22,940 nucleotides of DNA from a virus: positions 1 through 22,940 of IMG/VR virus record IMGVR_UViG_3300000236_000006. One strand, 5' to 3'. Under the pieces are notes generated by a model. That model made no database searches, was not told the origin of the DNA, and saw only the letters and a program-made list of their open reading frames with translations. The translations under genes were made by a program, and so were the position numbers. Shown here in pieces: positions 8,152-22,838 of the stretch (position 1 is the first letter of the stretch; every line of letters starts with the position of its first letter).

Positions 8152-8561
8152 TTTTCGGAGGTGTGTTTGAGTTGATGGATACAACGATTCTCAAGGATTC
8201 CGGAGATTTTTGTGAAGAGGTCGCGAAATGCCTGGTCGTTAGTCTCTCGATGATTATTGCTTTCAGTCTGCATCGACCGCAGACGCTCTACCACACCACG
8301 AAGGATGCTTATCTGCCCGCGGTTATCATCAAGCGCCGCTTTGAGTAAGTCAAAGTCCTTGTCCCTACTCTTAGATATCTGGTCGATGATGCTTTGATAG
8401 ACGGCTGTGGTGTTGCGCTCTCGCTGTTCCCACTTTTTGGCATCAGTCCTGATATACCAGAGCATAATGATGGAAAGAGCAAGCAGTGCGAAAAAGAGGA
8501 GCACAGCAATACCAAGTTGTGCGGCGAGTTGGTTTGGGTCTCCAAAGTTGAAATCCTGCAT
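8148..8561 (-). CDS. Membrane-anchored coiled-coil protein (Mu gp25 / DUF2730-like)
   Basis: The 137-aa product has a single strong membrane helix at residues 15-40 (GIAVLLFFALLALSIIMLWYI). A long charged helix then runs to about residue 115 and is probably a coiled coil. This is the architecture of the DUF2730 protein preceding the terminase genes in Mu-like phages, whose function is not known. It is the first gene of the leftward packaging operon and faces the divergent promoter region. An i-spanin is a less likely alternative, since the lysis genes are elsewhere. Confidence 0.7.
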   Translation of the reverse strand: MQDFNFGDPNQLAAQLGIAVLLFFALLALSIIMLWYIRTDAKKWEQRERNTTAVYQSIIDQISKSRDKDFDLLKAALDDNRGQISILRGVVERLRSMQTESNNHRETNDQAFRDLFTKISGILENRCIHQLKHTSEK

Positions 8562-8731: not shown

Positions 8732-9790
8732 GTGAATAATAATTACATGCTTAAACCTCTTTTTATGTCCGGAACTCATCGGACGCCACACCCGAAAAAG
8801 GTATGGACGGCTGAAGATGTTGATGCGGTCTTTACGGCATCAATGGTCAGTAGTCCGGAAATGATTCCGCTGGTGATTGGCCATCCTGAAAATGATTTGC
8901 CCGTGGTGGGGCTCCTTGCCCGCTCAGCTCTTGTCCGTCAGGGTGAGGGCGACAAGCGGGTGATTTTGATAGACGACGGTTCAGCGACGTTCAGTACGGA
9001 AGCGCTTGAACGATATCGCAAGGCTGGATACAGTAAGGTCTCGGTAAAGATCAAGATGCCGGAGATGGTTATTCGGCATATAGGTTTGGTGACAGAAGCA
9101 GCGGTGGATGAACTCAATAGCGCCACTTTTGGCGAGGGAGATCAGCCCGGCTTTGAGTATGCGGTGTTTGAGGCGGAGGCGCTCTTTGGGCGTGATGAGT
9201 GGCGTATGCCTTACGTCGGGGGTCTGTTTCGGAACGTCAGAGACTTCTTTATCGAGAAGTTTGGCGTTGAGGCTGCCGACAAGGTTCTGCCGACGTGGGA
9301 GATTGATAACCTTATTCCTCAGGCAGAAGAAGATAATCGTGGTGGTCAGGATGGTGGTGTCTGCGCTTTCGCAGCAAGTTTCTCAACAACGAATGCAATA
9401 ATTAACACAATGACAGAAGCAGAAAAACAGGAAATGGATCGGCTGAAAGCCGAAAACGCAAGACTGGCGGGGATTGTGGCCGTGAGTGCAGGAGCTCAAC
9501 GAACAGCGGCGATTGATGCTGTGTTCAGTGCGCCTGAAAATTCAGGTAAAGTTACCGACAAAAACAAGGATGCTTTACGCTTGATTGCTGAAGGTCTGGT
9601 GCCTGCTGATGCAACGTTTGGTGTGGGAGCTGACCCGCTGAAACCGTTTAAGGATTTGTTATCAATAATGCCGGTGGTGCAGCCTGCGGATGGCTCGGTA
9701 GCGACGTTTGGCCGGTCGGCTGATGGTGAGCCGGGGGATGAACGCAGCAAAAAACTCAGGGCAGAAATTTCAGCCGTAACCGGCGACTAA
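8732..9790 (+). CDS. Mu gpI-like prohead protease with C-terminal scaffold region
   Basis: The protein is about 350 aa. The N-terminal half (to about residue 180) resembles the Mu-type prohead protease: SGTHRTPHPKKVWTAEDVDAV, then LVIGHPENDLPVVGLL with a probable catalytic-type GHP histidine. The C-terminal part from about residue 227 (MTEAEKQEMDRLKAENARL) is a coiled-coil scaffold-like region, as in Mu where the scaffold Z is made from an internal start of gene I. The start may be GTG 8732 or ATG 8747; neither has a clear ribosome site. It directly precedes the capsid gene. Confidence 0.8.
   Translation: MNNNYMLKPLFMSGTHRTPHPKKVWTAEDVDAVFTASMVSSPEMIPLVIGHPENDLPVVGLLARSALVRQGEGDKRVILIDDGSATFSTEALERYRKAGYSKVSVKIKMPEMVIRHIGLVTEAAVDELNSATFGEGDQPGFEYAVFEAEALFGRDEWRMPYVGGLFRNVRDFFIEKFGVEAADKVLPTWEIDNLIPQAEEDNRGGQDGGVCAFAASFSTTNAIINTMTEAEKQEMDRLKAENARLAGIVAVSAGAQRTAAIDAVFSAPENSGKVTDKNKDALRLIAEGLVPADATFGVGADPLKPFKDLLSIMPVVQPADGSVATFGRSADGEPGDERSKKLRAEISAVTGD
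9410..9790 (+). CDS. Possible internal scaffold product of the protease gene
   Basis: ATG 9410 is in frame inside the protease gene and begins a 126-aa segment with a charged coiled coil (EKQEMDRLKAENARL) followed by a flexible C-terminus. In Mu the scaffold Z is translated separately from an internal start of gene I. Here the sequence upstream (CAATAATTAACACA) has no good Shine-Dalgarno, so separate translation is an inference from family precedent only. Confidence 0.35.
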   Translation: MTEAEKQEMDRLKAENARLAGIVAVSAGAQRTAAIDAVFSAPENSGKVTDKNKDALRLIAEGLVPADATFGVGADPLKPFKDLLSIMPVVQPADGSVATFGRSADGEPGDERSKKLRAEISAVTGD

Positions 9791-9817
9791 CTCTTATTAA
9801 TCAAAGCGAGGAAACAG

Positions 9818-10765
9818 ATGAAACTGAGAGAAATATCGGCGAGGGTACCAGCAGTGGCTGATACTTATATGCCAGAGATGACGAGAGTTGGTGTTGAGAC
9901 CTTTATACAGTCGCACCCGCTGATCCAATTCCTTGAGTTTTACGACATGGTTGGCGATGCAGCGTATGTGCAGCGGCAAAGTGACGCGTCTGGCGGTGTT
10001 GGCAGGGTGAAAGGCGTTGAATTTACGGCAGGGAATGAGAGCGGCGACTGGGTAGCTCCGGCGCTGAAGATTTTCGGTGACAGTAAAACGATCGATCAGG
10101 CGGAACAGCGTAGAGGCAAGAACCTTACTGATTTTGCTGACAGGGTGCTGAAATCTCTTGCACGGTACCAGGCGTGGAACTTCGCAGAAAGGTTTGTCGC
10201 CGGAACGGCATCGACATCCATGTGGGATGGTATTGCAACCCTTTGCCCAGTTGGGCAGAAAGTATCGCTGGCAACCAATGGCGCGGTAATCCCGCCGGGT
10301 AACTCGGATACAAACAGGGCTTTGCAGCAGGCGTTCTTTGAGGCTTTGGATACAGCCATATCTTACTGCCTTGGTGGTCCAAACGTCATAATGATGAACT
10401 CGAAGCTACTGAGCAGGATTACGAATGTGTACAAAGAGGCGTTCACTGTACCGGAAGGCCAGCAACAGGTAGGGGTTAGAATTCCCTACTACAATGGCAT
10501 ACCGATTGTACCGATGGGCAGAACTTCTGCAGGTGCAGAGATTCTGCCTTTCAGTGAAACAGTTGGTTCAGGCACAACGTGCAGTTCGATCTACATACTG
10601 AGTATCGGAGAGGCTGACCAGTTATCTGTTGGTACGAACATCGGGTATAATGCATTCCTCTCAAAACAAGGAGAGAAGTACAGGGTAACGTTTGAGGGTG
10701 ATTTTGTGCCGGTACTGTTTCATAACAAATGTATTTCGGCACTCACCGGCGTTAAACTGGCGTAA
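9818..10765 (+). CDS. Major capsid protein
   Basis: The 315-aa protein starts at ATG 9818 with a GAGGAA site upstream. It has the look of an HK97-fold capsid protein: an N-terminal helical part (MKLREISARVPAVADTYMP), RVKGVEFTAGNESGDW, and RQ/RR-rich helices with NLTDFADRVLKSLARYQAWNF. A C-terminal beta-rich region has IPYYNGIPIVPMGRT and FEGDFVPVLFHNKCI. It follows the protease/scaffold gene and precedes the gp36 connector, the Mu order for gpT. Sequence similarity to Mu gpT itself is not obvious, so the call rests on gene order, size and fold-like features. Confidence 0.82.
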   Translation: MKLREISARVPAVADTYMPEMTRVGVETFIQSHPLIQFLEFYDMVGDAAYVQRQSDASGGVGRVKGVEFTAGNESGDWVAPALKIFGDSKTIDQAEQRRGKNLTDFADRVLKSLARYQAWNFAERFVAGTASTSMWDGIATLCPVGQKVSLATNGAVIPPGNSDTNRALQQAFFEALDTAISYCLGGPNVIMMNSKLLSRITNVYKEAFTVPEGQQQVGVRIPYYNGIPIVPMGRTSAGAEILPFSETVGSGTTCSSIYILSIGEADQLSVGTNIGYNAFLSKQGEKYRVTFEGDFVPVLFHNKCISALTGVKLA

Positions 10766-10768
10766 GCA

Positions 10769-11257
10769 ATGCTTTATCTGACGCTTGATAATATTATCGC
10801 AGAAACCTCACTCCCCATTCTGCAACAGCTCGCCCCTTGGGTGAGTGGGGAGGATCAGGAGAGTGGGGAGTTCTTTGGCAAAGAAGTGAGTAACTCGCTG
10901 GTTGAATCGATCGAACTCACAGCGGTTGGCGAATTGTATGGTTATATCCGTGGGATTTATACCCTGCCACTGACAGCTCCGGTTGACTTGCTTGTACGGC
11001 AGACGCTTTTGGAGTTGATGCACTACCAGCTCTACAAGCAGCGTGACGGGGCTAACCTCCCCGACAAGATTCTTGAGCTGTACAAAGGGGCGGTTAAGCG
11101 GATGCAGGCAATGCAGCGCAGGGAGATTGTGCTCGATGCACTAATGGCGGTGGAGGACGCTGATCAACCGACGACATTCCAGTTTATCAGTCCTGCAGCA
11201 AAGTTTCCTGCGGGGTTTACTGCAACAGGCAGAACGTTCAGGAGCGGTTATTATTGA
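10769..11257 (+). CDS. Head-tail connector protein (Mu gp36 / DUF1320 family)
   Basis: The 162-aa protein opens MLYLTLDNIIAETSLPILQQL. Residues 50-70 (AVGELYGYIRGIYTLPLT) and 75-90 (LLVRQTLLELMHYQLYKQRD) match the gp36 pattern, where a helical protein binds the portal side of the head. It begins 3 bases after the capsid gene. The C-terminal region (SPAAKFPAGFTATGRTFRSGYY) is short and probably disordered. Gene order after the capsid supports the connector role. Confidence 0.82.
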   Translation: MLYLTLDNIIAETSLPILQQLAPWVSGEDQESGEFFGKEVSNSLVESIELTAVGELYGYIRGIYTLPLTAPVDLLVRQTLLELMHYQLYKQRDGANLPDKILELYKGAVKRMQAMQRREIVLDALMAVEDADQPTTFQFISPAAKFPAGFTATGRTFRSGYY

Positions 11258-11289
11258 GTAAAAGGTAGAATGAGCCGTCGCAACAAAAG

Positions 11290-11350
11290 TTAAACGGTTT
11301 TAAACGGGTTTTTAATGGGTTCTCTGGTTTTTAACGTGGTCTTTAAAAGG
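11290..11350. repeat. Imperfect 10-11-bp tandem repeats before the lysis genes
   Basis: TTAAACGGTT (11290-11299), TTAAACGGGTT (11300-11310) and TTTAATGGGTT (11311-11321) are three successive imperfect copies. Looser versions follow in GGTTTTTAACGTGG and CTTTAAAAGGG up to 11350. The period is about one helical turn. The array fills the 100-bp gap between gp36 and the endolysin, which has no gene and no clear promoter, and it could be a regulator-binding or bent-DNA region. Confidence 0.5.
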
Positions 11351-11357
11351 GTGTTTT

Positions 11358-11765
11358 ATGGCAAAGTTTTCAAAGATATCACAAAAGCGGCTTTTGGAGT
11401 GTGATCAGAGGTTAGTGGATCTCTTTACTGAAGTGATAGCTGACTTCGATTGCGTTGTTCTGGTTGGTCATAGGAATAAGGTAGATCAAGACGCGGCTGT
11501 AGCTGCCGGTAATTCAAAACTCGTGTATCCAAAAAGCAAGCACAATACCGTACCGAGTAAAGCTATTGACGTTGGGCCTTATGATCGGCCACAATCTCCG
11601 ATTGATTGGAATGATCGTGAACGGTTCACCCTTTTTGCAGGGTTTGTGCTTGGTGTGGCAAAATCTCGCGGGATTCCGCTCCGATGGGGTGGCGACTGGA
11701 ATGGTGACAATAGACTTGCTGATAACACGTTTGATGATCTGGTACACTTTGAGTTGATCGATTGA
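11358..11765 (+). CDS. Endolysin, L-alanyl-D-glutamate / M15 (VanY-like) peptidase
   Basis: The 135-aa protein has the phage M15 peptidase signature. LVGHR lies near residue 36, the zinc-binding SKHNTVPSKAIDVGP has H62 and D71, and a C-terminal DDLVHFEL supplies the third ligand at H130. Such enzymes cut the peptide side chain of peptidoglycan at the end of infection. There is no signal peptide, so it needs a holin-type exit, and small membrane proteins follow. The start ATG 11358 follows AAAAGGG. The final codons run into an 8-bp tandem repeat. Confidence 0.88.
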   Translation: MAKFSKISQKRLLECDQRLVDLFTEVIADFDCVVLVGHRNKVDQDAAVAAGNSKLVYPKSKHNTVPSKAIDVGPYDRPQSPIDWNDRERFTLFAGFVLGVAKSRGIPLRWGGDWNGDNRLADNTFDDLVHFELID

Positions 11766-11777
11766 TCGATTGATCGA
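11754..11777. repeat. Three perfect tandem copies of TTGATCGA
   Basis: The 8-bp unit TTGATCGA occurs at 11754-11761, 11762-11769 and 11770-11777. It covers the endolysin stop codon (11763-11765). Because the stop lies in the second unit, changing the copy number would not alter the protein end. Each unit contains TGATCGA/GATC sites. Confidence 0.85.
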
Positions 11778-11814
11778 CCGAATGATTTTATCAATTTTAA
11801 AATATGGGAAGATT

Positions 11815-12009
11815 ATGGATGTGAGTACAATTTTGGAAAAACTTGGGCCGTCAGGAGCGGTGATTGTTCCTGCTGTGGTGATTGCCGGAGCGTCTATACT
11901 TGATGCTTTGGTACCGATGCCAAAACAAGGGACAGTGCTCTGGTATGTGAAAAAGGTTGTCGCTTGGTTGGCGGTGAACATCGGGAACGCCAAAAACAAG
12001 GTGTCCTGA
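11815..12009 (+). CDS. Small membrane protein, probable holin
   Basis: The 64-aa protein (MDVSTILEKLGPSG...) has two hydrophobic segments. About residues 14-34 (AVIVPAVVIAGASILDALVP) and 39-56 (TVLWYVKKVVAWLAVNIG) flank a short loop, followed by a basic tail NAKNKVS. Size, two helices and position just after the endolysin fit a class II-like holin, the pore former that times lysis. I choose ATG 11815, which has GGGAAG upstream, over the alternative start at 11770. The stop overlaps the next gene's ATG. Confidence 0.6.
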   Translation: MDVSTILEKLGPSGAVIVPAVVIAGASILDALVPMPKQGTVLWYVKKVVAWLAVNIGNAKNKVS

Positions 12010-12227
12010 TGCTGACGGCGCTCATGGTATTTCTTGGCCGCATTGTAGCGTGGTTCCGCCCTGTTATTACTGATACGGCGTTGGAGGTAATGAAAGTCAA
12101 TATCAATACTCCGGAGTACTCGGCAACCACGGTGGCTGAGAGTGTGGCCACTCCGGAACAGCAAAATGAGGTTCTTGAAACAATTCAAAACTCGGAGTTA
12201 TGGAAAGCAACGCATTCAAAGTCCTGA
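12009..12227 (+). CDS. Small N-terminally membrane-anchored lysis-region protein
   Basis: The 72-aa product begins MLTALMVFLGRIVAWFRPVI, a single hydrophobic helix with a basic end, followed by a polar tail. The ATG overlaps the stop of the holin-like gene (TGATG), so translation is coupled. Its 3' end overlaps the lipoprotein gene by 28 bases in a different frame. That overlap recalls Rz/Rz1 spanin pairs, but the periplasmic part is very short for an i-spanin. It may instead be an antiholin. Confidence 0.6.
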   Translation: MLTALMVFLGRIVAWFRPVITDTALEVMKVNINTPEYSATTVAESVATPEQQNEVLETIQNSELWKATHSKS

Positions 12228-12460
12228 TTGTTGCGCTCATCGGTCTGCTGTCACTTTCGGGCTGTATGTCGCTCTCGATGCGCAAGCCGGTTGAACTTAC
12301 TTTTGCCGGCCAGTCGGTAATGTTGCGCGGTGTGGTTCCGGTAACGACGCGGGTCGAGTATTACGATACAACAGTTAAAGCGGTCAAGGTTAAAGAGGCA
12401 ACCATCACCCCGCCCTTCTGGATTGTCTCTGATGAGCTTCTTAACAAGTCAGTCAAATGA
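12200..12460 (+). CDS. Small lipoprotein, o-spanin-like
   Basis: The 86-aa protein has a lipoprotein signal. A hydrophobic stretch VLIVALIGLLSLSGC ends in the lipobox LSGC with C22, giving a mature protein of about 65 residues. It overlaps the preceding membrane-protein gene in another frame and lies in the lysis cassette. This is what an outer-membrane spanin subunit would look like in a phage of a Gram-negative host. It is not proline-rich as many o-spanins are, so the role is a proposal. Its stop overlaps the next start by ATGA. Confidence 0.6.
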   Translation: MESNAFKVLIVALIGLLSLSGCMSLSMRKPVELTFAGQSVMLRGVVPVTTRVEYYDTTVKAVKVKEATITPPFWIVSDELLNKSVK

Positions 12461-12861
12461 TTGTTGAACTGGAAACATTGTTAGTTGATACCTTGACGGC
12501 ATCCTTTTCCGGTACTGGTGTGCTGGTTGAAGCCTATCCGGACAATGTTGATACGTATGTCCTGAAAGGTACCAGTGCTGTGTTGGTGCACTATTCAGGC
12601 GCGGACTTCACAGTTCCTGATGGATCGGAAGTTGTCCGGCAAATGATGGGACCATCGTTTCAGATTGTGATTGGCTCTCGTAATCTGCGTACCCATACCG
12701 GTGCATACGTAATTATGGATACGATACGGTCAGCGGTGGTAGGGTCGGAATCGCGGAATAAACAGTTTTTCGCAGTCTCGGAGCAGTCCCTCGGGCGGGA
12801 TAATGGTGTGTGGTGGTTTGTTCAAACATTCGCAATACAGCAAAGAGTAAAACAGGCATAA
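12457..12861 (+). CDS. Gp37-family protein (Mu-like tail completion protein)
   Basis: The 134-aa protein matches the Mu Gp37 family in length and pattern. The N-terminal helix is MIVELETLLVDTLTASF, then YVLKGTSAVLVHYSGADF, with a central FQIVIGSRNLRTHTGAYVIMDTIRSAV. The C-terminal strands are NGVWWFVQTFAIQQR. Gp37-type proteins sit between head connector and tail genes and are considered tail terminator or head-tail joining components. It overlaps the lipoprotein stop. The lysis cassette thus splits gp36 from gp37, which are neighbours in Mu. Confidence 0.75.
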   Translation: MIVELETLLVDTLTASFSGTGVLVEAYPDNVDTYVLKGTSAVLVHYSGADFTVPDGSEVVRQMMGPSFQIVIGSRNLRTHTGAYVIMDTIRSAVVGSESRNKQFFAVSEQSLGRDNGVWWFVQTFAIQQRVKQA

Positions 12862-12898
12862 CTGTCAAGTTTAAAAACAACTTAAATAAATTTTAAAG

Positions 12899-13639
12899 AT
12901 GGCATTAACATTAGCAAATAATTGGGGTAATCTTCCAGGAAGGTTTATGTCATCCTTAAAAAGTGATGCAGCAATCGTACCTATCAATCAAGACACGCTT
13001 GTCTTCACGGCCGGCGGATACGACCCCTATAACGCTGGGCAACAGTTCTCAGGATCATGCGCGTACAAGCTTGGTAGCTCAACTGGAGAAAAATCATATA
13101 AACCAGTTTTTAAGGTTGCCACAGCAAAAGATGAACTTGATTCGATTATAAAAAAGAAAACAATCTTGGTTGATGGCACTGTCGATCTGACATTCAATCA
13201 GGATCCGGAAGCGTTTTTGCTTAAGAATCTCAATCAGCGATTTTTCCTTATCTACCGCGAAAGCGTTATGGATGATGGCTTTATCAAGTACCGGATTTTC
13301 CCAAAGGTTATTTTCTCTCCAGGTGATGTGAAAATCCCTGCGGGTGGCGATTATGTTACTTATCCGGTGTCGGCTCAGGTTGAAGAAAATAATGTGCCGT
13401 TTTCTCTGACTTACCGCACTATCTGCGATATTTATGCGCAGGAATTCTTTGTTGCTGCTAATGCGTCGAAAGTCCTCTATTTTGAGTATTCCTCCGGTGG
13501 GCAAGTCAAAATGGCTGATTTAGCGCAGGGAACGGGTTCGCCAACGTATGCAGCATCTTCGCTAATGATCGCGATTGTTGTGGATGCAGGTATTCGTACG
13601 GGGTTTCTTGTTGGTAGATTCATTATCTCAGCAGCGTAA
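12899..13639 (+). CDS. Probable major tail (tube) protein
   Basis: The 246-aa protein is beta-rich and soluble, without signal or membrane segments. Its position after the Gp37-family gene is where a tail tube protein is expected. It has a segment VDLTFNQDPEAFLLKNLNQR and PKVIFSPGDVKIPAGGDYVTYPVSAQVEEN, similar in style to tail tube proteins of long-tailed phages. I do not recognise the exact family. The leader 12862-12898 is very AT-rich and lacks a Shine-Dalgarno, like leaders of highly expressed genes in some Bacteroidota/Chlorobiota. It could also be another tail component. No sheath gene is present nearby. Confidence 0.5.
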   Translation: MALTLANNWGNLPGRFMSSLKSDAAIVPINQDTLVFTAGGYDPYNAGQQFSGSCAYKLGSSTGEKSYKPVFKVATAKDELDSIIKKKTILVDGTVDLTFNQDPEAFLLKNLNQRFFLIYRESVMDDGFIKYRIFPKVIFSPGDVKIPAGGDYVTYPVSAQVEENNVPFSLTYRTICDIYAQEFFVAANASKVLYFEYSSGGQVKMADLAQGTGSPTYAASSLMIAIVVDAGIRTGFLVGRFIISAA

Positions 13640-13685
13640 TACTTTAACGATTGGCTTTTTTAAGAAAAAAATACCGGAGGTAATT

Positions 13686-14978
13686 ATGGCTTGGGATACA
13701 CCGTTTTGGGGGAATGAATTTGTCTCTACAGCGAGAAGGTTAAAGTATGGATGGTTTGGGATTGCGCTTAACACGATAACCGGAGAGATTACCCGTCGTG
13801 GTGATGGGGAGTTTATGCCGGTGTCATCATCGGAAGGATCGAAATATATCGGTGATTGGGCATCGAAAGTGCTTGAACAGTTATGCCCTGTCGTCTTGAC
13901 TGATGACGGAGTTGAGTATAAAGAGATCAGTAAGCTCGATGTTACCCGACATACCGACGACACTAACGTTGATCGGACTGGTGGAAATGGTCAGATTATG
14001 GTGCGGCTGCCTGTACACTTTTACCGCTGTGCGGTTATTGGTATCTATTACATCCTTGATTTTTCAGATCAGGCGCTTGATGGATTCACGATCAGCCCAG
14101 CGACACCAACCGGTGTTCCTGCGTATATCGGGATGTACGAAGCGAGCAGGGTTCCATCGACAATGAAACTCTCCTCAATCAGCACTGATCCACGTGATTC
14201 GGCTTCTCCTGTGTGGCCAATCACGACAAGGGGAACGGACGAATGGGGAGTTGCTTCCGGTGGGTCCGCTGCTTATTTCCAGACATTGGCCACAGCCCGA
14301 GGAACTGGATGGACGTGTGTAAAAACGTGGTGGTGGATTATGCACTATCTGATACATGTTGCGGCTTATGGTACTCTCAACACTGATTTCTCCGTCGGGA
14401 CAGGACGAACAACATTGTCTGGTGGTACTTGGGTACGGGATTCAGACGCGTCGAATACAGGGTATATCGCGAGATGCGGATTGTCCAACCCCCTACGAGG
14501 TGAATCAGTAAGTGTGAATACTGGGTTTTTGACATCCGTTTCAAGAATGTTGTTTGTTGAAAATCAGTTCGGAAATATCTGGAAGGCTATCCCTGATTGT
14601 CTCATCGATGCGCAGATCCCGTCTGCGGTGAGGATGATGATCAAGCAAAGTCCGCCCTATAGTGAAGTAAGTTTGACTGGATACATCGCACTTAAAGACT
14701 TTGCGGGCCATGATGTACTCCTGCCAAGCAGTAGCGGATATCAGGGAGTACCGAATAGCGGCCTTGCTCTGTTCTTGTCGTCAATATCTAATGGAAACAG
14801 CAGTTCTTGGTCAGGAGACTACAGTTATATCACTACGGGTATCGGTCTCCGCGGTTTGCTGGTTGGCGGTGGCGCGGCCGATGGTGCGTCTGCGGGGGGC
14901 GTTCATCGGTATTCGTATCACGCGCCTTCGATTTCGTCTACGTCTATCGGGTCGCGGCTCGGCTTCCAGGCTGCGTAG
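13686..14978 (+). CDS. DGR target protein: variable tail/receptor-binding protein
   Basis: The product is 430 aa. ATG 13686 has GGAGG at 13676-13680, five bases upstream; the frame is open further upstream but lacks support. The C-terminal domain ends with the DGR variable-protein layout: an IGLRGLLVGGG motif, several altered codons, and SIGSRLGF near the end. This corresponds to a C-type-lectin/formylglycine-enzyme-like fold in which loops tolerate many residues. The VR covers residues 386-427. By analogy with BPP-1 Mtd it would be a receptor-binding tip protein, made highly variable through adenine-specific retrohoming. Residues 1-380 lack motifs I recognise. It precedes TR and RT on the same strand. 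Confidence 0.9.
   Translation: MAWDTPFWGNEFVSTARRLKYGWFGIALNTITGEITRRGDGEFMPVSSSEGSKYIGDWASKVLEQLCPVVLTDDGVEYKEISKLDVTRHTDDTNVDRTGGNGQIMVRLPVHFYRCAVIGIYYILDFSDQALDGFTISPATPTGVPAYIGMYEASRVPSTMKLSSISTDPRDSASPVWPITTRGTDEWGVASGGSAAYFQTLATARGTGWTCVKTWWWIMHYLIHVAAYGTLNTDFSVGTGRTTLSGGTWVRDSDASNTGYIARCGLSNPLRGESVSVNTGFLTSVSRMLFVENQFGNIWKAIPDCLIDAQIPSAVRMMIKQSPPYSEVSLTGYIALKDFAGHDVLLPSSSGYQGVPNSGLALFLSSISNGNSSSWSGDYSYITTGIGLRGLLVGGGAADGASAGGVHRYSYHAPSISSTSIGSRLGFQAA
14841..14967 (+). repeat. DGR variable repeat (VR)
   Basis: This is the 3' end of the target gene. It aligns without gaps to TR 15029-15155 with a constant offset of 188 bases. Over 127 bases, 19 differ, and each difference is an A in TR: nine A-to-G, six A-to-C and four A-to-T. 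TR has 28 A's in this span, so about two thirds are altered. All C, G and T positions match. Fourteen codons change amino acid, including all eight AAY codons. Confidence 0.96.
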
Positions 14979-14983
14979 CAGCC
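14969..14983 (+). promoter_or_regulatory. Hairpin at the VR 3' end (probable target-recognition element)
   Basis: GGCTGC (14969-14974), loop GTA (14975-14977) and GCAGCC (14978-14983) form a perfect 6-bp stem. It overlaps the stop codon TAG and begins one base after the last VR base I align. TR has no such structure. In BPP-1 and related DGRs, a DNA hairpin or cruciform just downstream of VR is needed for efficient retrohoming. A weak terminator role is possible, since a T-run (14997-15003) follows 13 bases later. Confidence 0.7.
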
Positions 14984-15028
14984 CGAATGCGTTGTGTTTT
15001 TTTGTTCTTTGGGATGGTGTTGCGCTGT

Positions 15029-15155
15029 ATCAGTCTCCGCGGTTTGCTGGTTGGCGGTAACGCGAACAATGGTGCGAATGCGGGAGGCGTTAATCGGAAT
15101 TCGAATAACACGCCTTCGATTACGTCTACGTATATCGGGTCGCAGCTCAGCTTCA
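15029..15155 (+). repeat. DGR template repeat (TR)
   Basis: This is the non-coding partner of VR, starting ATCAGTCTCC and ending near AGCTTCA. In the frame equivalent to VR it has eight AAY codons, which can mutate to many amino acids but never to a stop. It would be transcribed, probably with the target gene or RT transcript, and reverse-transcribed with errors at A. The rest of the 14979-15247 gap is only TR flank: 50 bases before TR and about 90 after it, with a 17-codon ORF (ATG AAG ATT TGC...) that I do not regard as a gene. Confidence 0.95.
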
Positions 15156-15247
15156 TGAAGATTTGCAACATTGTCCTTGCCTCTTGGCAAAAAAGTAAAC
15201 GGCCGTAAAGTTGTGCTGGTAGGGTTAACGAAAGCTCAAAGGGTCAC

Positions 15248-16201
15248 GTGAAGCGGATAGGAAGATTATGGGAACGGCTTTGTTCTCTTGAAAATATTGA
15301 ACTTGCTCATTGCCGTGCCCGCCGAGGGAAAAAGCACTACGAGGAAGTGATGATGGTTGACAAGGATCATCAAAAGTATTTCGGATTGATACGGGAGATG
15401 TTGGTTGCTAAAACGTTCGTCAATTCGCCTTACGTGGTGATGATGAGAAATGACGGGATGAAAGAGCGCGAGATATGGAAACTCCCTTACTTCCCTGATA
15501 GAATTATACATCATTGCATTGTGAATGTGTTGGAGTTGATGTGGATGCGAGGTTTTATTCGTGATACGTATGCAGCATTACCCGGACGTGGCGTACATGA
15601 TGGAGTGAAGAGAATTAGAAAATCGTTGGAAAATGTCGATGAGACAAGGTATTGCCTCAAGATGGATGTGCGGAAGTTTTATCAGTCGATTGATCACGGT
15701 GTTCTGAAGGGTTTGTTGAGAAGAAAAGTAAAAGATAATGACCTGCTTTGGCTCCTTGATGTGATTATTGATAGTGCAAAAGGTGTGCCGATAGGGAATT
15801 TTTCAAGCCAGTATTTTGCGAATTTTTATTTATCTGATTTTGACCATTGGATTAAAGAGGTGTTGCAGGTCAAGTACTATTTCAGGTATTGCGATGACCT
15901 TGTTTTGCTTGGTGCGGATAAAGCTGAGCTCCATGCGTCACGGGTTGCAATTGATGAATATTTCTCAGGCAAACTCAAAATTGAGGTTAAAGGGAATTGG
16001 CAGGTTTTTCCGGTTGATGCACGAGGAATTGATTTTTTAGGATATCGGTTTTTCCATGGGTACACGTTGGTCAGAAAATCGATTGTCAGGAATTTCAAAC
16101 AAAAGTATAGAGCAGGAAATTGTAACGCAATGTCGGCTTATAACGGGTGGTTTGTTTGGGCAAACACTCATAATCTAAGGAGAAAATATGCAGGGATTTA
16201 G
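15248..16201 (+). CDS. DGR reverse transcriptase
   Basis: The 317-aa RT is of the DGR class. It starts at GTG 15248 (AAAGGG just upstream), giving the class-typical start MKRIGRLWERLCSLENIELA. Palm motifs in order are CLKMDVRKFYQSIDH (catalytic D140), VPIGNFSSQYFANFYL with the DGR-specific SQ at 187-188 (group II intron and retron RTs usually have QG...SP), YFRYCDDLVLL with D216 and D217, and GIDFLGYRF. It copies TR RNA into adenine-mutated cDNA that replaces VR. It has no maturase or endonuclease domain and is about as long as BPP-1 bRT. It overlaps the next gene by 14 bases. Confidence 0.96.
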   Translation: MKRIGRLWERLCSLENIELAHCRARRGKKHYEEVMMVDKDHQKYFGLIREMLVAKTFVNSPYVVMMRNDGMKEREIWKLPYFPDRIIHHCIVNVLELMWMRGFIRDTYAALPGRGVHDGVKRIRKSLENVDETRYCLKMDVRKFYQSIDHGVLKGLLRRKVKDNDLLWLLDVIIDSAKGVPIGNFSSQYFANFYLSDFDHWIKEVLQVKYYFRYCDDLVLLGADKAELHASRVAIDEYFSGKLKIEVKGNWQVFPVDARGIDFLGYRFFHGYTLVRKSIVRNFKQKYRAGNCNAMSAYNGWFVWANTHNLRRKYAGI

Positions 16202-16487
16202 TGATGCAAAGCCCATCGTGGTTGAGAACGTCAATGGTCGGCACCAGTTCCGGTACAATATTACTGAGGTTCCGGCAGTAGAGGATAAGGTTGCTGGATG
16301 GCGGTATGATTACCTTGAAGTGGATCAGCTTGACTGTAAGGTTATCATTGATGCAATGATAACGCAAAAATATTCCTACGCAAGCCAACTTGGAAAACTG
16401 GCATTATCGAGGACATCGGCGGAATGGATCGAATATAACGCATACCGGTTGAGCTGCATTGATGCGGTGATGAGTGGTTTGCAATAA
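16188..16487 (+). CDS. Unknown small protein, possible DGR accessory factor or fibre chaperone
   Basis: The 99-aa product starts at ATG 16188 with AAGGAG upstream, inside the RT 3' end. It has a short polar N-terminus, then GWRYDYLEVDQL and a helical C-terminal half (CKVIIDAMITQKYSYASQ, then SAEWIEYNAYRLSCIDAVM). I do not recognise it; small proteins of this WRYDY...EYNAYR style accompany tail-tip genes in other phages. It is not obviously Avd, the usual accessory protein, which is a basic four-helix bundle. Its overlap with the RT suggests co-regulation. Confidence 0.65.
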   Translation: MQGFSDAKPIVVENVNGRHQFRYNITEVPAVEDKVAGWRYDYLEVDQLDCKVIIDAMITQKYSYASQLGKLALSRTSAEWIEYNAYRLSCIDAVMSGLQ

Positions 16488-16784
16488 ATGATGAAACGGT
16501 TTTCTGATTTCGCGGATCCACTGAATATTCTTGATGGGGCAAAGATTAAGCTTGATGAGGTTATTAATAGGGAGATCGTTGTTCTTGGGTTCCGTGTTAC
16601 TGAGAGTAAGTTTGGTAAAAATAAGTCTGGGAAGTGCTTGATGTTGCAGATTGAGATTGATGGTGTTCACAAGGTAATTTTTACAGGTAGTGATGTTTTG
16701 ATTGAACAGATGGCGCGATATGGAGGAGAGGTTCCATTTTGTGCGACTTTAAAAAAGATCGACAAGTTCTATACGTTGAGTTAA
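16488..16784 (+). CDS. Small beta-rich protein, possible nucleic-acid-binding DGR accessory factor
   Basis: The protein is about 97 aa, starting at ATG 16488 or 16491. It begins MKRFSDFADPLNILDGAKIK, then a beta-rich middle (EIVVLGFRVTESKF, CLMLQIEIDGVHKVIFTG), and ends ATLKKIDKFYTLS. The alternating strands and KI/KIDKFYT pattern suggest an OB-fold like that of single-strand DNA-binding proteins, but I cannot confirm this. I recall related short proteins as unnamed phage genes. A nucleic-acid-binding protein next to a DGR RT could assist cDNA synthesis or integration; this is inference from position and predicted fold only. Confidence 0.6.
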   Translation: MMKRFSDFADPLNILDGAKIKLDEVINREIVVLGFRVTESKFGKNKSGKCLMLQIEIDGVHKVIFTGSDVLIEQMARYGGEVPFCATLKKIDKFYTLS

Positions 16785-16802
16785 TATTTTTTAGGGGAAG
16801 CT

Positions 16803-17243
16803 ATGACTATCTACGACAATCTTGGACGCTATCCATCGCGTGTAATCCCTATCAGGGAGGGGAGGGTCGAGATTCAACTTTCGGGCGCTGGGCCTTATAA
16901 AGATATAGGGTACTGTAGAATTGAATGTGATGAGCCGGCAGCGATAACCGTTAAGACTGCTCTGGGAGGACGGCGGGTGCTTGGTTATAATGACCGGCTT
17001 GAGATTACCTGGCTTCAAACAGGAAGTTCGGAGATGGCAGCACTGTTTGGCTTGCAGAATGGTGAGCACGACATCAAATTGTCTCGCAAAAGAGATGTCT
17101 CTGAGGGAGGTGGTGAGGAGATACGGATGTACCTCGCATACTTTATGCAGCTCTTGCCGAGCTTGGGTAAAGGGGAGATTAAGATGATTTTCGAGAAGCA
17201 AATCAGTGTGGCTGAGATGCAAAGAAGAATGTTCTATCAATGA
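16803..17243 (+). CDS. Hypothetical phage structural protein, 146 aa
   Basis: The protein begins at ATG 16803 with AGGGGAAG upstream. The N-terminal half is beta-rich (RVEIQLSGAGPYKDIGYCRIECDEPAAITVKT). The C-terminal half is helical (EIRMYLAYFMQLLPSLGKGEIKM), with the basic end QRRMFYQ. No family is recognised. It overlaps the next gene by ATGA, so it is probably expressed with the following large tail-associated proteins. Its N-terminal strand pattern would fit a fibre or baseplate adaptor. Confidence 0.65.
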   Translation: MTIYDNLGRYPSRVIPIREGRVEIQLSGAGPYKDIGYCRIECDEPAAITVKTALGGRRVLGYNDRLEITWLQTGSSEMAALFGLQNGEHDIKLSRKRDVSEGGGEEIRMYLAYFMQLLPSLGKGEIKMIFEKQISVAEMQRRMFYQ

Positions 17244-18076
17244 AGTTACTTAAACCGATACGCAAGGTACGTATTGAACAGGCAACGGGGAATAAGTTGT
17301 TCGATGCTTCAGAAAAGCAGACCTTCGAGTACTCCCAGTTTGAGCCGGGGACATATACGAAGTCTCCATTAACCTATATGCACCAGAATGGGCAGGTAAT
17401 GCCGTACGCTGTGCGCGAGGAAGTTATTGTTGATTTGGTGGAGTTTACGGATACTCAGTTGAATCTCCTGTTTGCTTGGGAATTGATTGATGTAGAGGTA
17501 ACGCTCGGCTTTCCAGATGAAGCTTCTACGATGATCTACTTTTATGCGGTTAAGCCGCAACTTAATTTAAATATTACTGAAGGAGTTCAAAAGTTAAAGT
17601 TCTCTGTACAGCAGTTCGCCACCGACAACGGGGATCTGACTGGAGAATATTATGTCGCGAAATTCGGTTATGGAACGCATCTCGGGGCTATTGATAATAT
17701 AGTTGAAATGCCGATTATCGGCTGCCGTGTTGGGCTGCAGGTGATAAAACTCCCGTACAGGAATGGATTATATGCTGACATCGAAAGGATTATCGGTTAT
17801 AAACGCACTGCAGTGATAACTTTATCGCCTAAAGCAGCGAACAGTATGGGTAATGGGTTTAACTCAGCGATTGAGACCTGGTTGTTTGCTCCATACAAGA
17901 ACGTGTGGGCAAGAAACTTTTTTGCTGACACAGTAATAAATAGTACAGATGTTCCGCGTTTGGTGGTTTGCACGAATTCTGAAGAAATTGTGGAGGAGCG
18001 CCTTGATAACCTCTATCAGGGGCGCAATATCACGATTGAGGTGATTGACCGAAATATTAACTTTTTACCAGTATAA
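17240..18076 (+). CDS. Probable tail-tip or distal tail protein, 278 aa
   Basis: The product is soluble and beta-rich. It starts MKLLKPIRKVRIEQATGNKL, has EEVIVDLVEFTDTQLNLLFAWELIDVEVTLGFPDE in the first third, and ends VEERLDNLYQGRNITIEVIDRNINFLPV. The N-terminal ATG overlaps the preceding stop. No family is recognised. It lies before a 693-aa tail-tip-like gene, the usual place for a distal tail (Dit-type) protein in long-tailed phages, but I cannot show homology. Confidence 0.6.
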   Translation: MKLLKPIRKVRIEQATGNKLFDASEKQTFEYSQFEPGTYTKSPLTYMHQNGQVMPYAVREEVIVDLVEFTDTQLNLLFAWELIDVEVTLGFPDEASTMIYFYAVKPQLNLNITEGVQKLKFSVQQFATDNGDLTGEYYVAKFGYGTHLGAIDNIVEMPIIGCRVGLQVIKLPYRNGLYADIERIIGYKRTAVITLSPKAANSMGNGFNSAIETWLFAPYKNVWARNFFADTVINSTDVPRLVVCTNSEEIVEERLDNLYQGRNITIEVIDRNINFLPV

Positions 18077-18079
18077 CAC

Positions 18080-20161
18080 ATGGGTACCCATACATGGAGT
18101 TTGCTGACACCAGGTGTTTCGGCGCTTATCACGCTTACCGTTGACAGTACAGTCCCTTCATTGGATGGTAGTTCCTTTGACGAAGGATTCACCGATCGTT
18201 ACGACCTTGATGTATCTCAAGATATTATAATCTCATGTGGTATTGAGAGTGAGTACTCTGATGGGGAGTATGGATATTTTTTACCCAGCGAGACCACAAT
18301 ACAATTTGCGGTGCTTGGTCATGATGCTTATGCAATGCGGTATTTCCGTGATGCTGTTAAGTCGGTTGTTATTAGCCGTGCGGGTGAACCGGTTTTTTGT
18401 GGTAATCTTGACCGTAAGTCGGTGAGCTACTCGTTTGAATCTCGGACGTTAATCGCAGTATTTACACCGTTCATCCGCCCTGACCGAGATATAAAGGCTA
18501 ACGACGGCACTGTTGATGCTGCTCTTTTTCAGCAGGTCTTTGGCGTTCCTTATGCTCAATATGATGATGGAACTGTGGTGGGTGATTGGATACAATTACG
18601 GAGCGCACTCCACGCTCTCTTGCGGTGGTTTGGTGCTGTTGGAGACATTGTTGAGGGTGATTTTAACCGATATATGACTTCTGTTATTCTACAGAACCGA
18701 GGTGAACCAATTCGGTCTACCAGTACCCATGGGGCATCCGGTTGGGATGGGTCGGTATCTTTGTCGCAGTGGCTTAATAGTGTTGAAAAGAACTTGACCT
18801 ATAATCGGCTTTATATTTATAAGCGGATACTTGTTCAGGATGGAAAGTATGAATCGGTTGGAGCATCAACACTCCTTGATGTCATTATTAATCTTTGTCG
18901 TGAAATTGGTGCTGTAATCGGGATTGCTCCGGATGGGAATGGTTTTATCTATCCAGCGTATATGGTGCGAACACCTATTTATCTTGCTGAAGATTCGGTA
19001 TTAAGCGTATCCATTGAAGGATATCTTGAAAAAGTACCAGCAGTGGTTGCTGCTGGTAGCTTATATCCTCTTTCCAGTTTTGGGGAGAACTCTCCAGGGA
19101 TGTCTTTTATACCGGATATTACGACGTTTGGGACTGTGCGGTATAACCAGGCAGGTCTGCATCAAGCGCAGTATTATTCTGTATCAACTCTTTTTACTGA
19201 GGATATTGATACTGGGGACGCGGTAAAAGTATGTAAGTTTATGCACAACCCACAACAAGGGTCTATCCCGAGCGGAGTAGGCACGGACACGTTTGGTTAC
19301 TGTGCTACAGGCACGATAACGCCAGACGGGTCGTTGATGGCAGTGAAGTATATGGGGACAGAGGATAATTGGAATACCAACGGATATGGGTATTGGTTAG
19401 TATCAGATATTTCTTCGATTATTAGTATTGGGTGCTGGTACTATTCGCTCTATAGGTTTGATCGAGAACAGATTACCTTGGGACTCGATGGTGTTGATTA
19501 TCTCCCTTATGAAATATACGTGTTGCCTACTCGGTATGGAAGTATTGTGATTAGGCCGTTGTCTATATCTATAAATTTAACACAGAATACGACATCGTTG
19601 ACGGGGATTTCTGTTGACGAGTCTGGGTTAATTCTCCCTTCTGGGGTGGTTCCGGGTAGTGGTGGTGAAACTGCGCTTGAGGTTCGGATAATTGTGATTT
19701 CTTGTGGCACAGCTATACTGACACCCGGTACGACTAATATTCCGGATAATCGTATACCAATGTGGGTGACTTCTCTTCCATGTTGTGTGCATTGTGGAGT
19801 CACTTTCACACCAGGGGCTATCTATACTGACTATATAGGGAATCCTATGGTAGGTGTGAGTGCGACAGCGGCTTGGCAAATTAATGTTAATTCATCAGGT
19901 ATATGGCGCCTATGGGTGAAGGCTGAGGTTATTGAAAATTTCGTGCCGTCCTTCTCAAATTTTTTATCGCTACAAGTTGATGGGGATACCCCTGATCAGT
20001 TTAATGTTCCGATTCTTTCTGGAATGGTTTGGCAACTGATTACAACAAAAACTCTTAGCCTTGGGCCGCATCAATTAGTTCTTCGATACGTCAACCCATG
20101 GATGATGTACGGAGTCGCAGCAATTTATTTAACTAAAGACGGTGAAACACCAAACTTCTAA
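18080..20161 (+). CDS. Large tail-tip / baseplate-hub-like protein, 693 aa
   Basis: The largest protein in the window. The first 350 residues resemble tail hub proteins in style: repeated beta segments such as SETTIQFAVLGHDAYAMRY, GEPVFCGNLDRKS and TLIAVFTPFIRPDRDI, then a helical insert LLDVIINLCREIGAVIGIAP. The C-terminal part (about 540-693) has a jelly-roll-like domain with SGIWRLWVKAEVI and LSLGPHQLVLRYVNPW, typical of carbohydrate-binding modules. The start ATG 18080 follows the previous stop by 3 bases and has no strong ribosome site. Its role as a tail hub is inferred from size, composition and position. Confidence 0.55.
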   Translation: MGTHTWSLLTPGVSALITLTVDSTVPSLDGSSFDEGFTDRYDLDVSQDIIISCGIESEYSDGEYGYFLPSETTIQFAVLGHDAYAMRYFRDAVKSVVISRAGEPVFCGNLDRKSVSYSFESRTLIAVFTPFIRPDRDIKANDGTVDAALFQQVFGVPYAQYDDGTVVGDWIQLRSALHALLRWFGAVGDIVEGDFNRYMTSVILQNRGEPIRSTSTHGASGWDGSVSLSQWLNSVEKNLTYNRLYIYKRILVQDGKYESVGASTLLDVIINLCREIGAVIGIAPDGNGFIYPAYMVRTPIYLAEDSVLSVSIEGYLEKVPAVVAAGSLYPLSSFGENSPGMSFIPDITTFGTVRYNQAGLHQAQYYSVSTLFTEDIDTGDAVKVCKFMHNPQQGSIPSGVGTDTFGYCATGTITPDGSLMAVKYMGTEDNWNTNGYGYWLVSDISSIISIGCWYYSLYRFDREQITLGLDGVDYLPYEIYVLPTRYGSIVIRPLSISINLTQNTTSLTGISVDESGLILPSGVVPGSGGETALEVRIIVISCGTAILTPGTTNIPDNRIPMWVTSLPCCVHCGVTFTPGAIYTDYIGNPMVGVSATAAWQINVNSSGIWRLWVKAEVIENFVPSFSNFLSLQVDGDTPDQFNVPILSGMVWQLITTKTLSLGPHQLVLRYVNPWMMYGVAAIYLTKDGETPNF

Positions 20162-20162
20162 G

Positions 20163-20633
20163 ATGATAGAAACTAAAAAAGAACTCACACGGAGCGACTA
20201 CCTTACAATGATCCAGGCGCCGCTCGTTATTGCCGGGTCAACCGTGAATTTTGCAGAGCCAACCGTCGCTCGGATGGAGGCGGTCAATGATCTTATCGGG
20301 TTCGATCTATGGGAGAGTAACCCGTCGACAGACAGCCGTGTCCGGAAACTCCTGATGGTGCGCTTTGATGGCGATAACGCGAAGGTTGAGCAGCTTTGCA
20401 GGCAGGTGTTGCAGGTTGTGCCTGACGATCTTGATGTTGACAAAGTAACCGGTCTGGAGCTTGGAGCGCTCCTGCAGGGTTTTTTTATCTACTTTCATGT
20501 CCGGGCGGGCACCATCGATGTAACGCTAAAGCTTATGCCGCAGCAAGCGGTGCCGACAGTGTCGCCCAGCGATACATCTCTGATGCTCAAAAAGAGTTCG
20601 CACAGGTCAAATCGCAAACCTTCCGTATGCTGA
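20163..20633 (+). CDS. Tail assembly chaperone, short form
   Basis: The 156-aa protein starts at ATG 20163, two bases after the upstream stop. It has ETKKELTRSDYLTMIQAPLV, a central EQLCRQVLQVVPDDLDVDKV and a GALLQGFFIYFHV segment near the T-run. Position immediately before the tape measure gene and a probable -1 frameshift extension match lambda G/GT-type chaperones, which keep tape measure protein soluble during tail assembly. The C-terminus after residue 110 (PQQAVPTVSPSDTS...NRKPSVC) has non-coding flavour, supporting recoding before the stop at 20631-20633. Confidence 0.7.
   Translation: MIETKKELTRSDYLTMIQAPLVIAGSTVNFAEPTVARMEAVNDLIGFDLWESNPSTDSRVRKLLMVRFDGDNAKVEQLCRQVLQVVPDDLDVDKVTGLELGALLQGFFIYFHVRAGTIDVTLKLMPQQAVPTVSPSDTSLMLKKSSHRSNRKPSVC
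20480..20486 (+). other. Candidate -1 frameshift heptamer (T TTT TTT)
   Basis: The chaperone reads CAG GGT TTT TTT ATC. The in-phase heptamer T TTT TTT (20480-20486) allows a -1 slip to TAT CTA. That frame stays open to TGA 20780-20782. The clearly coding part of the -1 frame begins a little later (NAKAYAAASGADSVAQRY from about 20522), so the true slip point could be downstream. Confidence 0.45.
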
Positions 20634-20782
20634 CGATCACCGAGAAATACAAGGTATTCTGTGCTGACCTTGCCCAGAAGGGCTTTGGCTCTTTTAATGA
20701 TCTTGTAACGACACCTTTAAATCAAGTTGAAGAGTGGCGTGCTATCTCAATTTTACAAAGTATAATCTCCGGAGGAAACTGA
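20486..20782 (+). CDS. Frameshift extension of the tail chaperone (GT-type)
   Basis: This frame has no start codon before a clearly coding stretch. It reads YAAASGADSVAQRYISDAQ, then KSQTFRMLTITEKYKVFCA and FGSFNDLVTTPLNQVEEWR, ending SIISGGN. It lies -1 relative to the chaperone and stops 1 base before the tape measure ATG. A GT-like fusion of about 206 aa would be produced if ribosomes slip at the T-run. In lambda the T domain recruits tail tube protein to the tape measure complex. The sequence GGAGG needed for the tape measure start is embedded in its last codons. Confidence 0.6.
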   Translation, partial: YLLSCPGGHHRCNAKAYAAASGADSVAQRYISDAQKEFAQVKSQTFRMLTITEKYKVFCADLAQKGFGSFNDLVTTPLNQVEEWRAISILQSIISGGN

Positions 20783-20783
20783 T

Positions 20784-22838
20784 ATGGCAGCAACCAATGA
20801 AATGTTTGAGCTGCTCGTTAAAATCACTGGCGACAGCTCTTTGGCTCAATCCTCTCTTGGAGACCTGAAGGCTGATGCTGAGAAGCTTAATGCAAAGCTC
20901 GCGACAATGGATGTTGGGAGTAAGGCTTTTGAGGAAACGACCACAAAAGCAAAGGCATACGGAAGAGCAATACAAGAGCTGGAGCAGCCGATCAAGCGGC
21001 TGAGTACTGCAAATACGGACGCCCAGAACACGGCGATGAATGTTAGCCGTGTTATATCGGATATGCCTTATGGCATTCAGGGTATTGCCAACAACGTCGA
21101 TATGTTGATGGAGAGTTGGGGCCGCTTGAGATCGCAAAATAACTCGGTAAAAGCAACATTTCAGGCGCTCTTGAGTGCAATGACCGGCCCGATGGGGATT
21201 ATGATGGCTGTAACGGCTGTAACGTCATTGGCGATTGCGTTCGGGGATAAACTGGTACAGGCGATTGGAGGCGCCGGGGATAAGGTGGATGGCCTCAAAA
21301 ATAAGATAGATGATATTGAAAAAAACTCCAGAATCGATGTTGATGTTCGGGTTATTGGTCTATCAGCTCTTGCTGCGGTTGCGATTAAGATTGAGGATAT
21401 TGTAACAAAGCTGAATGATGTAAGGCGTGCAGAGAAAAGAGATGCGATTATAAAGAAGGGTCCAGGTTATGGAGATTATGGGGCGTCACTGAAGGCTGCT
21501 TTTACAGGGGATTACTCAAGAATACAGGCGCAAACTGATGCGTATGAGGCAGCTATTCAGGAGTTAAATAAACAGATGTATGACCGAATAAAATCAATGA
21601 AACTCGGTAAATCAACCGTTGATGCGAAGATATGGTTAGAATATGCTGAGAACCTTGGAATGGCGGCACCAACTGAATCGGAAATTACACAAGCGAAGTT
21701 GCTGCGGCAATTGGCTATTGCTAGGGCAGAAAGAACTCATCAAAAGGTTATCGCGGAGGAAAAGTTAGGTAAAAGCGAGGAATCCGCAGATAAAAAAGCA
21801 GAAGCAGCAGAAAGAAGATTAGCTGCTACTCAGGAGAAACTTCGAGCAGAAGAAGATAAAGAGCAAGAGAGGATTGAGGCTGCGCAGACTTCGATCTATG
21901 CAAGTATCATGAGCGATGTTGAGCAGATGCAGATCAAGACGAAAGCGGATGTTGAGGCTGTAACAGCAAAGATCAACTCCGGTGCTCTTGGGGAGAAATA
22001 TGCTGAAATGATAGAGGATCTCCAAGAGAAGACGAAAACAGCAATCAATCAAACTGTTGTAGATCAATTTCAGGCTATCATCCAAAAGATGAAGAGTGGT
22101 CAGAAACTCACGAAAGAGAATATGACACTCCTGCAGACCCAAGCGGGGTTCTCAAAAGAAGATTCCGCGTTGATGGGTCAGATTTCGGATAAACAGTATG
22201 ATATAGCGAACCGTGGTAAGGGGAAGAAAGGGGAAAATGATAAGCCGACGACTTTTAAAGAGGTAAAAAAAGAGAGTGATGAGGCTTTGGATAATTTCGC
22301 GGAAAAATTTGAAGCAAAAACGGTTGCGGCTTATGAATCTTCAGTCGATCTGTTTTCAGAACAGTTATCATCAGCGATTCTTCAGGGTGGTCAGTCATTT
22401 AGTGATATTCTTGGTAATGTAGCGTCAGCGTTTGGTCAGGCTTTGATGCAGTTTGTTATACAGGCGTTGGTAAAGCAAGCGTTTGGCGGAATATTTTCAC
22501 TTATAGGTTTTGCGGAAGGAACTCTATCGGCTCCCCCGGGTTACTCTTGGGTTGGTGAGAAAGGCCCCGAATTAGTGCGTTTTAGGGGAGGTGAGGAAGT
22601 GGTGCCGACGAACCAAGTTCACTCACGCTTGAATAGCCTTTATAGTGCGAGTAGCTCCGCACAATCAGCTCAAAGTACAATGGATACATCTGGGCTTGTC
22701 CGTGCTCTCGAACGGCAGACAAAGGCACTGATTAAAGACCGTTTGAATTATGAAATCACGATGAATGGAGTGAACCAAATAGCACGGGCAACGAAGGCAA
22801 GGGAAGCTCAAATAAGCCGCTATACTGGGTTGAGATGA
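20784..22838 (+). CDS. Tail tape measure protein
   Basis: The 684-aa protein has a long charged helical body, including a coiled coil around residues 330-370 (EAAERRLAATQEKLRAEEDK). A hydrophobic segment lies near residues 130-155 (LSAMTGPMGIMMAVTAVTSL), with a second at about 555-580 (FGQALMQFVIQALVKQAFGG). The C-terminal GEKGPELVRFRGGEEVVP is a hallmark of tape measure proteins. It sets tail length and is ejected with DNA. The start ATG 20784 has GGAGG at 20771-20775. The size implies a tail of roughly 100 nm by the usual rule of about 0.15 nm per residue. Confidence 0.9.
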   Translation: MAATNEMFELLVKITGDSSLAQSSLGDLKADAEKLNAKLATMDVGSKAFEETTTKAKAYGRAIQELEQPIKRLSTANTDAQNTAMNVSRVISDMPYGIQGIANNVDMLMESWGRLRSQNNSVKATFQALLSAMTGPMGIMMAVTAVTSLAIAFGDKLVQAIGGAGDKVDGLKNKIDDIEKNSRIDVDVRVIGLSALAAVAIKIEDIVTKLNDVRRAEKRDAIIKKGPGYGDYGASLKAAFTGDYSRIQAQTDAYEAAIQELNKQMYDRIKSMKLGKSTVDAKIWLEYAENLGMAAPTESEITQAKLLRQLAIARAERTHQKVIAEEKLGKSEESADKKAEAAERRLAATQEKLRAEEDKEQERIEAAQTSIYASIMSDVEQMQIKTKADVEAVTAKINSGALGEKYAEMIEDLQEKTKTAINQTVVDQFQAIIQKMKSGQKLTKENMTLLQTQAGFSKEDSALMGQISDKQYDIANRGKGKKGENDKPTTFKEVKKESDEALDNFAEKFEAKTVAAYESSVDLFSEQLSSAILQGGQSFSDILGNVASAFGQALMQFVIQALVKQAFGGIFSLIGFAEGTLSAPPGYSWVGEKGPELVRFRGGEEVVPTNQVHSRLNSLYSASSSAQSAQSTMDTSGLVRALERQTKALIKDRLNYEITMNGVNQIARATKAREAQISRYTGLR

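Follow-up and report, generated by a model that had tools for sequence, protein, structure and literature searches.

A diversity-generating retroelement in a Mu-like phage, with a structured spacer RNA and a candidate accessory protein

Introduction

A phage genome fragment in which a tail gene ends in a repeat, with a second copy of that repeat and a reverse transcriptase (RT) gene following directly downstream, raises two questions: whether these parts make up a diversity-generating retroelement (DGR) that could still work, and by what machinery such an element would copy its template into the tail gene. The DNA that we analysed, called the window throughout, is a viral sequence of 22,940 bases, itself a fragment, and the locus lies in the region from 13686 to 16201, which a sequence-only reading had described as a complete DGR of the BPP-1 model in a Mu-like phage. 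DGRs in Mu-like phages are already known from hankyphage (PMC6199706), and DGRs have been well surveyed (PMC8144416).

Results

The repeat pair and the reverse transcriptase

The core features of the locus are the following.

13686-14978, plus strand: target gene, an open reading frame (ORF) for a 430-aa tail protein (PHROG 5302), with VR at its 3' end
14839-14966, plus strand: variable repeat (VR), a 128-nt direct repeat of TR
14969-14983, plus strand: hairpin GGCTGC-GTA-GCAGCC, with a perfect 6-bp stem, around the stop codon that ends the target gene
15027-15154, plus strand: template repeat (TR), a 128-nt repeat outside the target gene
15248-16201, plus strand: DGR RT of 317 aa, with a GTG start and the motifs IGNFSSQ and YCDD

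VR and TR align without gaps over 128 bases and differ at 18 of them, every one of which (18/18) is an adenine in TR. The sequence-only reading had counted 19 differences in 127 bases, each of them at a TR adenine, and comparing 14841-14967 with 15029-15155 reproduces these counts exactly (9 changes to G, 6 to C and 4 to T); the chance of all 19 differences landing on the 28 adenines among 127 bases is 4e-16. The 19th difference (TR A15155, VR C14967), however, directly precedes a non-A mismatch and so falls on the boundary of the homology or outside it, and the repeat proper is therefore the one of 128 bases with 18 differences. Seventeen of these 18 replace the encoded residue, and they fall mainly in Asn codons (AAY) of TR.

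The RT matches the family models PF00078 (E 2e-12) and PHROG 1423 (E 5e-111). For a profile built from this RT and 16 relatives the best solved structure was the BPP-1 RT (bRT, 8ub7; E 1e-59), and retron and intron RTs fell some 35 orders of magnitude short of this fit. The RVT_1 domain is common to the RTs of DGRs, retrons and group II introns and to defence-type RTs, and NCBIfam models of intron, Drt and retron RTs match the window RT weakly, all far under their cut-offs; from these matches one could propose that the RT is of the retron, group II intron or defence type and that the repeat pair next to it has no connection with it. The present data contradict that proposal, to which we give next to no probability: the repeats differ at A only, the profile favours bRT to the extent just given, and the VR-TR-RT layout is kept in 49 distinct loci. 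Across those loci VR and TR differ at 948 of 1481 TR adenines versus 40 of 4118 other bases, counts that come from related loci and are not independent events.

With the differences between VR and TR confined to A, a DGR-type RT adjoining TR and VR at the 3' end of the target gene, the reading of the locus as a DGR stands, and we regard it as almost certain that the element is a DGR with all core parts. Its description as complete on the BPP-1 model holds for those core parts but not for Avd, the BPP-1 helper protein, which was not found, and the cassette contains every part claimed for it but really ends beyond 16201, at about 16784. Between VR and TR, at 15002-15013, the window has the sequence TTGTTCTTTGGG, conserved in the nearest relatives L003, L004, L006, L008 and L048 (in part), which may serve the template RNA as an upstream signal.

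Variation of VR in related genomes

Searching viral contigs with the exact TR 5' pattern, a search from which near-identical records may be omitted, we found no sister genome of the window phage, and hence no direct sign of activity in this phage itself. Five contigs from different metagenomes (L014-L018) are identical over the 600 bases upstream of VR and over TR and RT (1201/1201), while their VRs share only 96-103 of 116 bases. This variation affects 21 of the 28 columns that are A in TR versus 5 of the 88 other columns, and in this VR diversity the activity of the DGR becomes visible in a relative of the window phage. The five variable non-A columns, mostly T to G, represent rare errors outside A. 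L003 and L085, which are among the closest relatives, have identical TRs and yet VRs that disagree at 13 A positions and 2 others. In L070, two VR copies (5242-5312 and 5623-5695) match a single TR, giving two targets for one RT.

A DGR that was once active but is now inactive in the window phage, with VR as a relic of past retrohoming, would fit the near relatives L009 and L049, whose repeats (VR 5592-5718, TR 5777-5903) carry nine non-A differences beside 12 at A, a decay-like pattern that possibly reflects a decaying DGR or a changed TR. We consider such inactivity unlikely, since zero non-A differences lie inside the window repeat and the IGNFSSQ and YCDD motifs of the RT and the cassette ORFs are intact in the window.

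The target gene and the hairpin after VR

The target matches the tail protein family PHROG 5302 (E 4e-39), which supports its earlier assignment as a tail protein, and homologs with 34-64% identity lie upstream of TR and RT in relatives. The AlphaFold model of the 430-aa protein was poor (pLDDT 39), the domain search returned no domain match, C-type lectin included, a profile search of the PDB gave a single weak match (E 0.017), and tblastn against phage records gave no match. Because the target thus yielded no confident model, a C-type lectin fold and receptor binding are expectations, and a tail-tip receptor-binding protein through which the phage can change its host range, as the sequence-only reading had it, is a reasonable supposition about the target.

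The hairpin starts two bases past VR, and its stem covaries in relatives (AGCTGC/GCAGCT, GGCCGC/GCGGCC and GGGCGC/GCGCCC). It is the counterpart of the hairpin/cruciform of BPP-1, which is required for efficient target recognition and which has 7-10 bp and a 4-nt GRNA loop (PMC3240598), whereas the window hairpin has 6 bp and a 3-nt loop.

The phage and its probable host

Genes with family matches to GemA, a Mor-type activator, KilA-N, a Mu-type portal (Portal_Mu), Phage_Mu_F and a large terminase flank the cassette; a head protease, a major head protein and an endolysin are also encoded near it, and a Gp37-type gene is among its neighbours. The GemA, Mor, Portal_Mu and Phage_Mu_F matches agree with the description of the phage as Mu-like. 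No MuA-type transposase was found in the 22.9-kb window fragment, and three near relatives that share its DGR (L004, L005 and L048) have in their records Mu-transpos_C, the C-terminal domain of Mu-type transposases. Packaging and portal genes occupy the minus strand at 2709-8184, and capsid and tail genes the plus strand at 8732-22838; hankyphage divides the same gene groups between the strands in the same way. The RTs from bacterial genomes that are nearest to the window RT, at 73% and 70%, belong to Chlorobiaceae assemblies. The likeliest host is therefore a green sulfur bacterium, as judged from no more than the RT and some of the tail genes.

A structured RNA and a long-range helix between TR and RT

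Three further features lie at the end of TR, in the spacer and at the start of the RT gene.

15150-15157, plus strand: GCTTCATG at the 3' end of TR, forming the 5' strand of a long-range helix
15173-15260, plus strand: RT-17-like structured RNA, with a hairpin at 15177-15190 and an inner stem of 15213-15217 with 15233-15237
15247-15254, plus strand: CGTGAAGC across the RT start codon, forming the 3' strand of that helix

The spacer of 90-odd bases between TR and RT matched Rfam RF03020 (RT-17) at 36.8 bits (E 1.2e-5), for a gathering score of 40.4; at the gathering score Rfam gave no match in the window, and RT-17 appeared in E-value mode only. Twelve of 18 other sources reach the RF03020 gathering score. 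In a structure-blind alignment of 30 loci all 270 cells over nine pairs (270/270) hold standard pairs, eight of the nine pairs show changes in both partners, and not one of 500 shuffles approached this result, which strongly supports the fold; the window stretch taken alone folds no better than shuffles. We conclude that this spacer RNA very probably belongs to the template RNA. It resembles RT-17 in sequence, in structure and in its position before an RT gene, and differs in scoring just under the gathering score and in being tied to the TR of a DGR and to a longer-range helix.

The BPP-1 spacer is the Rfam family Phage_DGR, and the hankyphage spacer (L165 38551-38700) is RT-3, at 146.6 bits, so a structured spacer is a trait that DGRs share with different RNA families. 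Since the hankyphage spacer is RT-3, several Rfam families named 'RT-n' have the look of scaffolds for the template RNA of DGRs.

The long-range helix joins the 3' end of TR to the start of the RT gene, and its complementarity is kept despite sequence change, with 35 different 5' strands in 38 loci. Native partners out-pair swapped partners (0 of 20,000 permutations), in what is, on related loci, a test of co-change and not of independent events. Mutated TR adenines abut the helix: in the 38 loci they make up 23 of 23 within 3 bases of it, 45 of 46 within 4-10 bases and 687 of 1091 further upstream, and in 16 of the 38 the last changed A directly adjoins the helix. This count left out three loci with misplaced helices, and the only evidence that it provides is the surplus of mutated A immediately upstream of the helix; the 0 of 9 mutated adenines inside the helix carries no evidential weight, since under the strict repeat-end rule the last 4 bases always match. 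The same scoring applied to BPP-1 pairs TR 123-129 with spacer 48-54, beside the priming adenine, reportedly position 56 (Handa et al. 2018). Applied to hankyphage, it showed no such helix before the RT.

Because the complementarity is conserved, mutated adenines abut the helix and the BPP-1 pairing lies beside the priming adenine, we propose, with somewhat better than even confidence, that the helix of TR end and RT start is a template-primer duplex; the hankyphage result and the folding of the window stretch on its own speak against it. The 3' strand overlaps the RT start codon in the window and in L003-L005, and the spacer RNA and helix might instead act mainly in cis on translation of the RT. 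This we think improbable, as most relatives have this strand 7-30 bases ahead of the start codon and a translation switch leaves unexplained why mutated A abut the helix. Moreover, the counterpart spacer of BPP-1, for which an RNA structure and priming from a spacer adenine are established, recruits RT-Avd and primes cDNA (PMC12875486). As a priming duplex, the window helix would differ from that of BPP-1 in the place of its pairing segment, at the RT start in the window and inside the spacer in BPP-1.

Avd and a candidate accessory protein

We searched for Avd with two family models, neither of which (PF22296, PF05635) had a match in the window, which is a fragment, or in relatives; PF22296, applied to 30 relatives, detected the Avd of BPP-1 at E 2e-37 as a control. 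Downstream of the RT there are two small ORFs.

16188-16487, plus strand: 99-aa ORF between the RT and the accessory gene, with homologs beside the RT in 13 loci; its membership of the cassette is uncertain
16488-16784, plus strand: candidate accessory protein of 98 aa, predicted to be OB-fold-like, with homologs at RT loci

The 99-aa ORF gave no family match. Homologs of the 98-aa protein are present at 107 of 163 RT loci. At 73 of these the protein has a gene of its own, which in most cases directly follows the RT, and at 34 it is part of the RT ORF itself; 36% of nearby RT loci have no accessory protein in the available sequence, some of them because they are truncated. Hankyphage is a case of fusion, its RT residues 327-422 being a homologous accessory domain in which the bAvd model found no match. 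When viral contigs were searched with the accessory family alone, 74 loci had enough upstream sequence, and 73 of these have a DGR-type RT, always on the same strand. L207 is the sole viral locus in which the accessory protein lacks a recognisable DGR RT upstream of it.

The location of the 98-aa gene in the tail region, with the 99-aa ORF separating it from the RT, is what one would see if it were an ordinary tail-module gene that stands beside the DGR by chance. We hold this to be very unlikely in view of the same-strand DGR RT at 73 of 74 independent viral loci and the fusion to the RT in 34 loci. The gene also has many homologs at other loci, unlike the neighbouring phage genes, which have few or none, and it occurs in seven bacterial genomes with a single copy in each. 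In all likelihood, then, the 98-aa protein is a DGR accessory, as judged from gene linkage and fusion.

Single members of the accessory family gave no convincing Pfam match and no NCBIfam match. PHROG 19665, which has no assigned function, matches 43 of 59 family members but not the window's own member at E 0.01. The model of the protein (pLDDT 91.5) has the strand order of an OB fold; its matches among solved structures are weak and include the OB-fold domains of SSB and RPA, and its best two matches among viral models are RTs. Wu et al. 2018 proposed DGR accessory proteins, one of which, as far as the account in PMC10053308 goes, is without Pfam/CDD attribution, and the 98-aa protein may be that one. 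That it replaces Avd is a reading to which we give even chances.

Discussion

We consider it highly probable that the locus is best explained as a DGR that looks functional, carried by a transposable (Mu-like) phage whose host is probably a green sulfur bacterium or one of its relatives. In the mechanism that we propose, an RNA spanning TR through the spacer would be made, and its spacer would fold as an RT-17-type structure. The 3' end of TR would pair over the RT start, as co-change of the two strands indicates, and this pairing may set a primer strand against TR. The RT would copy TR with errors at A, the pattern of which is seen in the repeats, and the cDNA would then replace VR in the tail gene with the post-VR hairpin assisting, if BPP-1 is a guide. 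The 98-aa OB-fold-like protein would aid the RT, perhaps doing the work that Avd does in BPP-1, as its linkage and its fusion to the RT suggest. The outcome would be a tail protein diversified at its C-terminus.

Hankyphage (Bacteroides phage p00, BK010646) is likewise Mu-like, with the order target-VR-TR-RT and A-only differences (PMC6199706). It also shares with the window a structured RNA between TR and RT, the lack of a bAvd Pfam match and a homologous accessory domain. Its DGR lies at the end of the late region, whereas that of the window lies between the tail gene and the tape measure; its spacer RNA is RT-3 and not RT-17; its accessory is fused to the RT and not a separate gene; and its RT is very different from the window RT, at 33% identity. 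A small hankyphage ORF has been labelled Avd (PMC12135933), an identity that the bAvd model did not support here. The DGR of Bordetella phage BPP-1 (mtd-avd-TR-brt) resembles that of the window in the pattern of A mutagenesis, in RT family, in the structured spacer, in the hairpin after VR and in the complementarity of TR end and spacer, and differs in having Avd and in its spacer RNA, Phage_DGR.

A wider possibility, which we put forward tentatively and at less than even chances, is that there is a large group of DGRs without Avd in which RT-17-type RNA and a covarying duplex of TR end and RT start would prime the cDNA. In such DGRs a small OB-fold protein, either as a separate gene or as a C-terminal domain of the RT, hankyphage included, would take over the RNA- and cDNA-handling role of Avd, and the Rfam families RT-17, RT-3 and Phage_DGR would be versions of one DGR template-RNA scaffold.

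The element belongs to a known kind of DGR and its setting has a precedent in hankyphage; our account of its Avd-free machinery is well supported but partly inferred. What it adds is a testable account of DGRs without Avd that covers the template RNA, a possible start of the cDNA and a partner protein of the RT. As the accessory domain is present inside the hankyphage RT, an existing laboratory system could test the accessory role.
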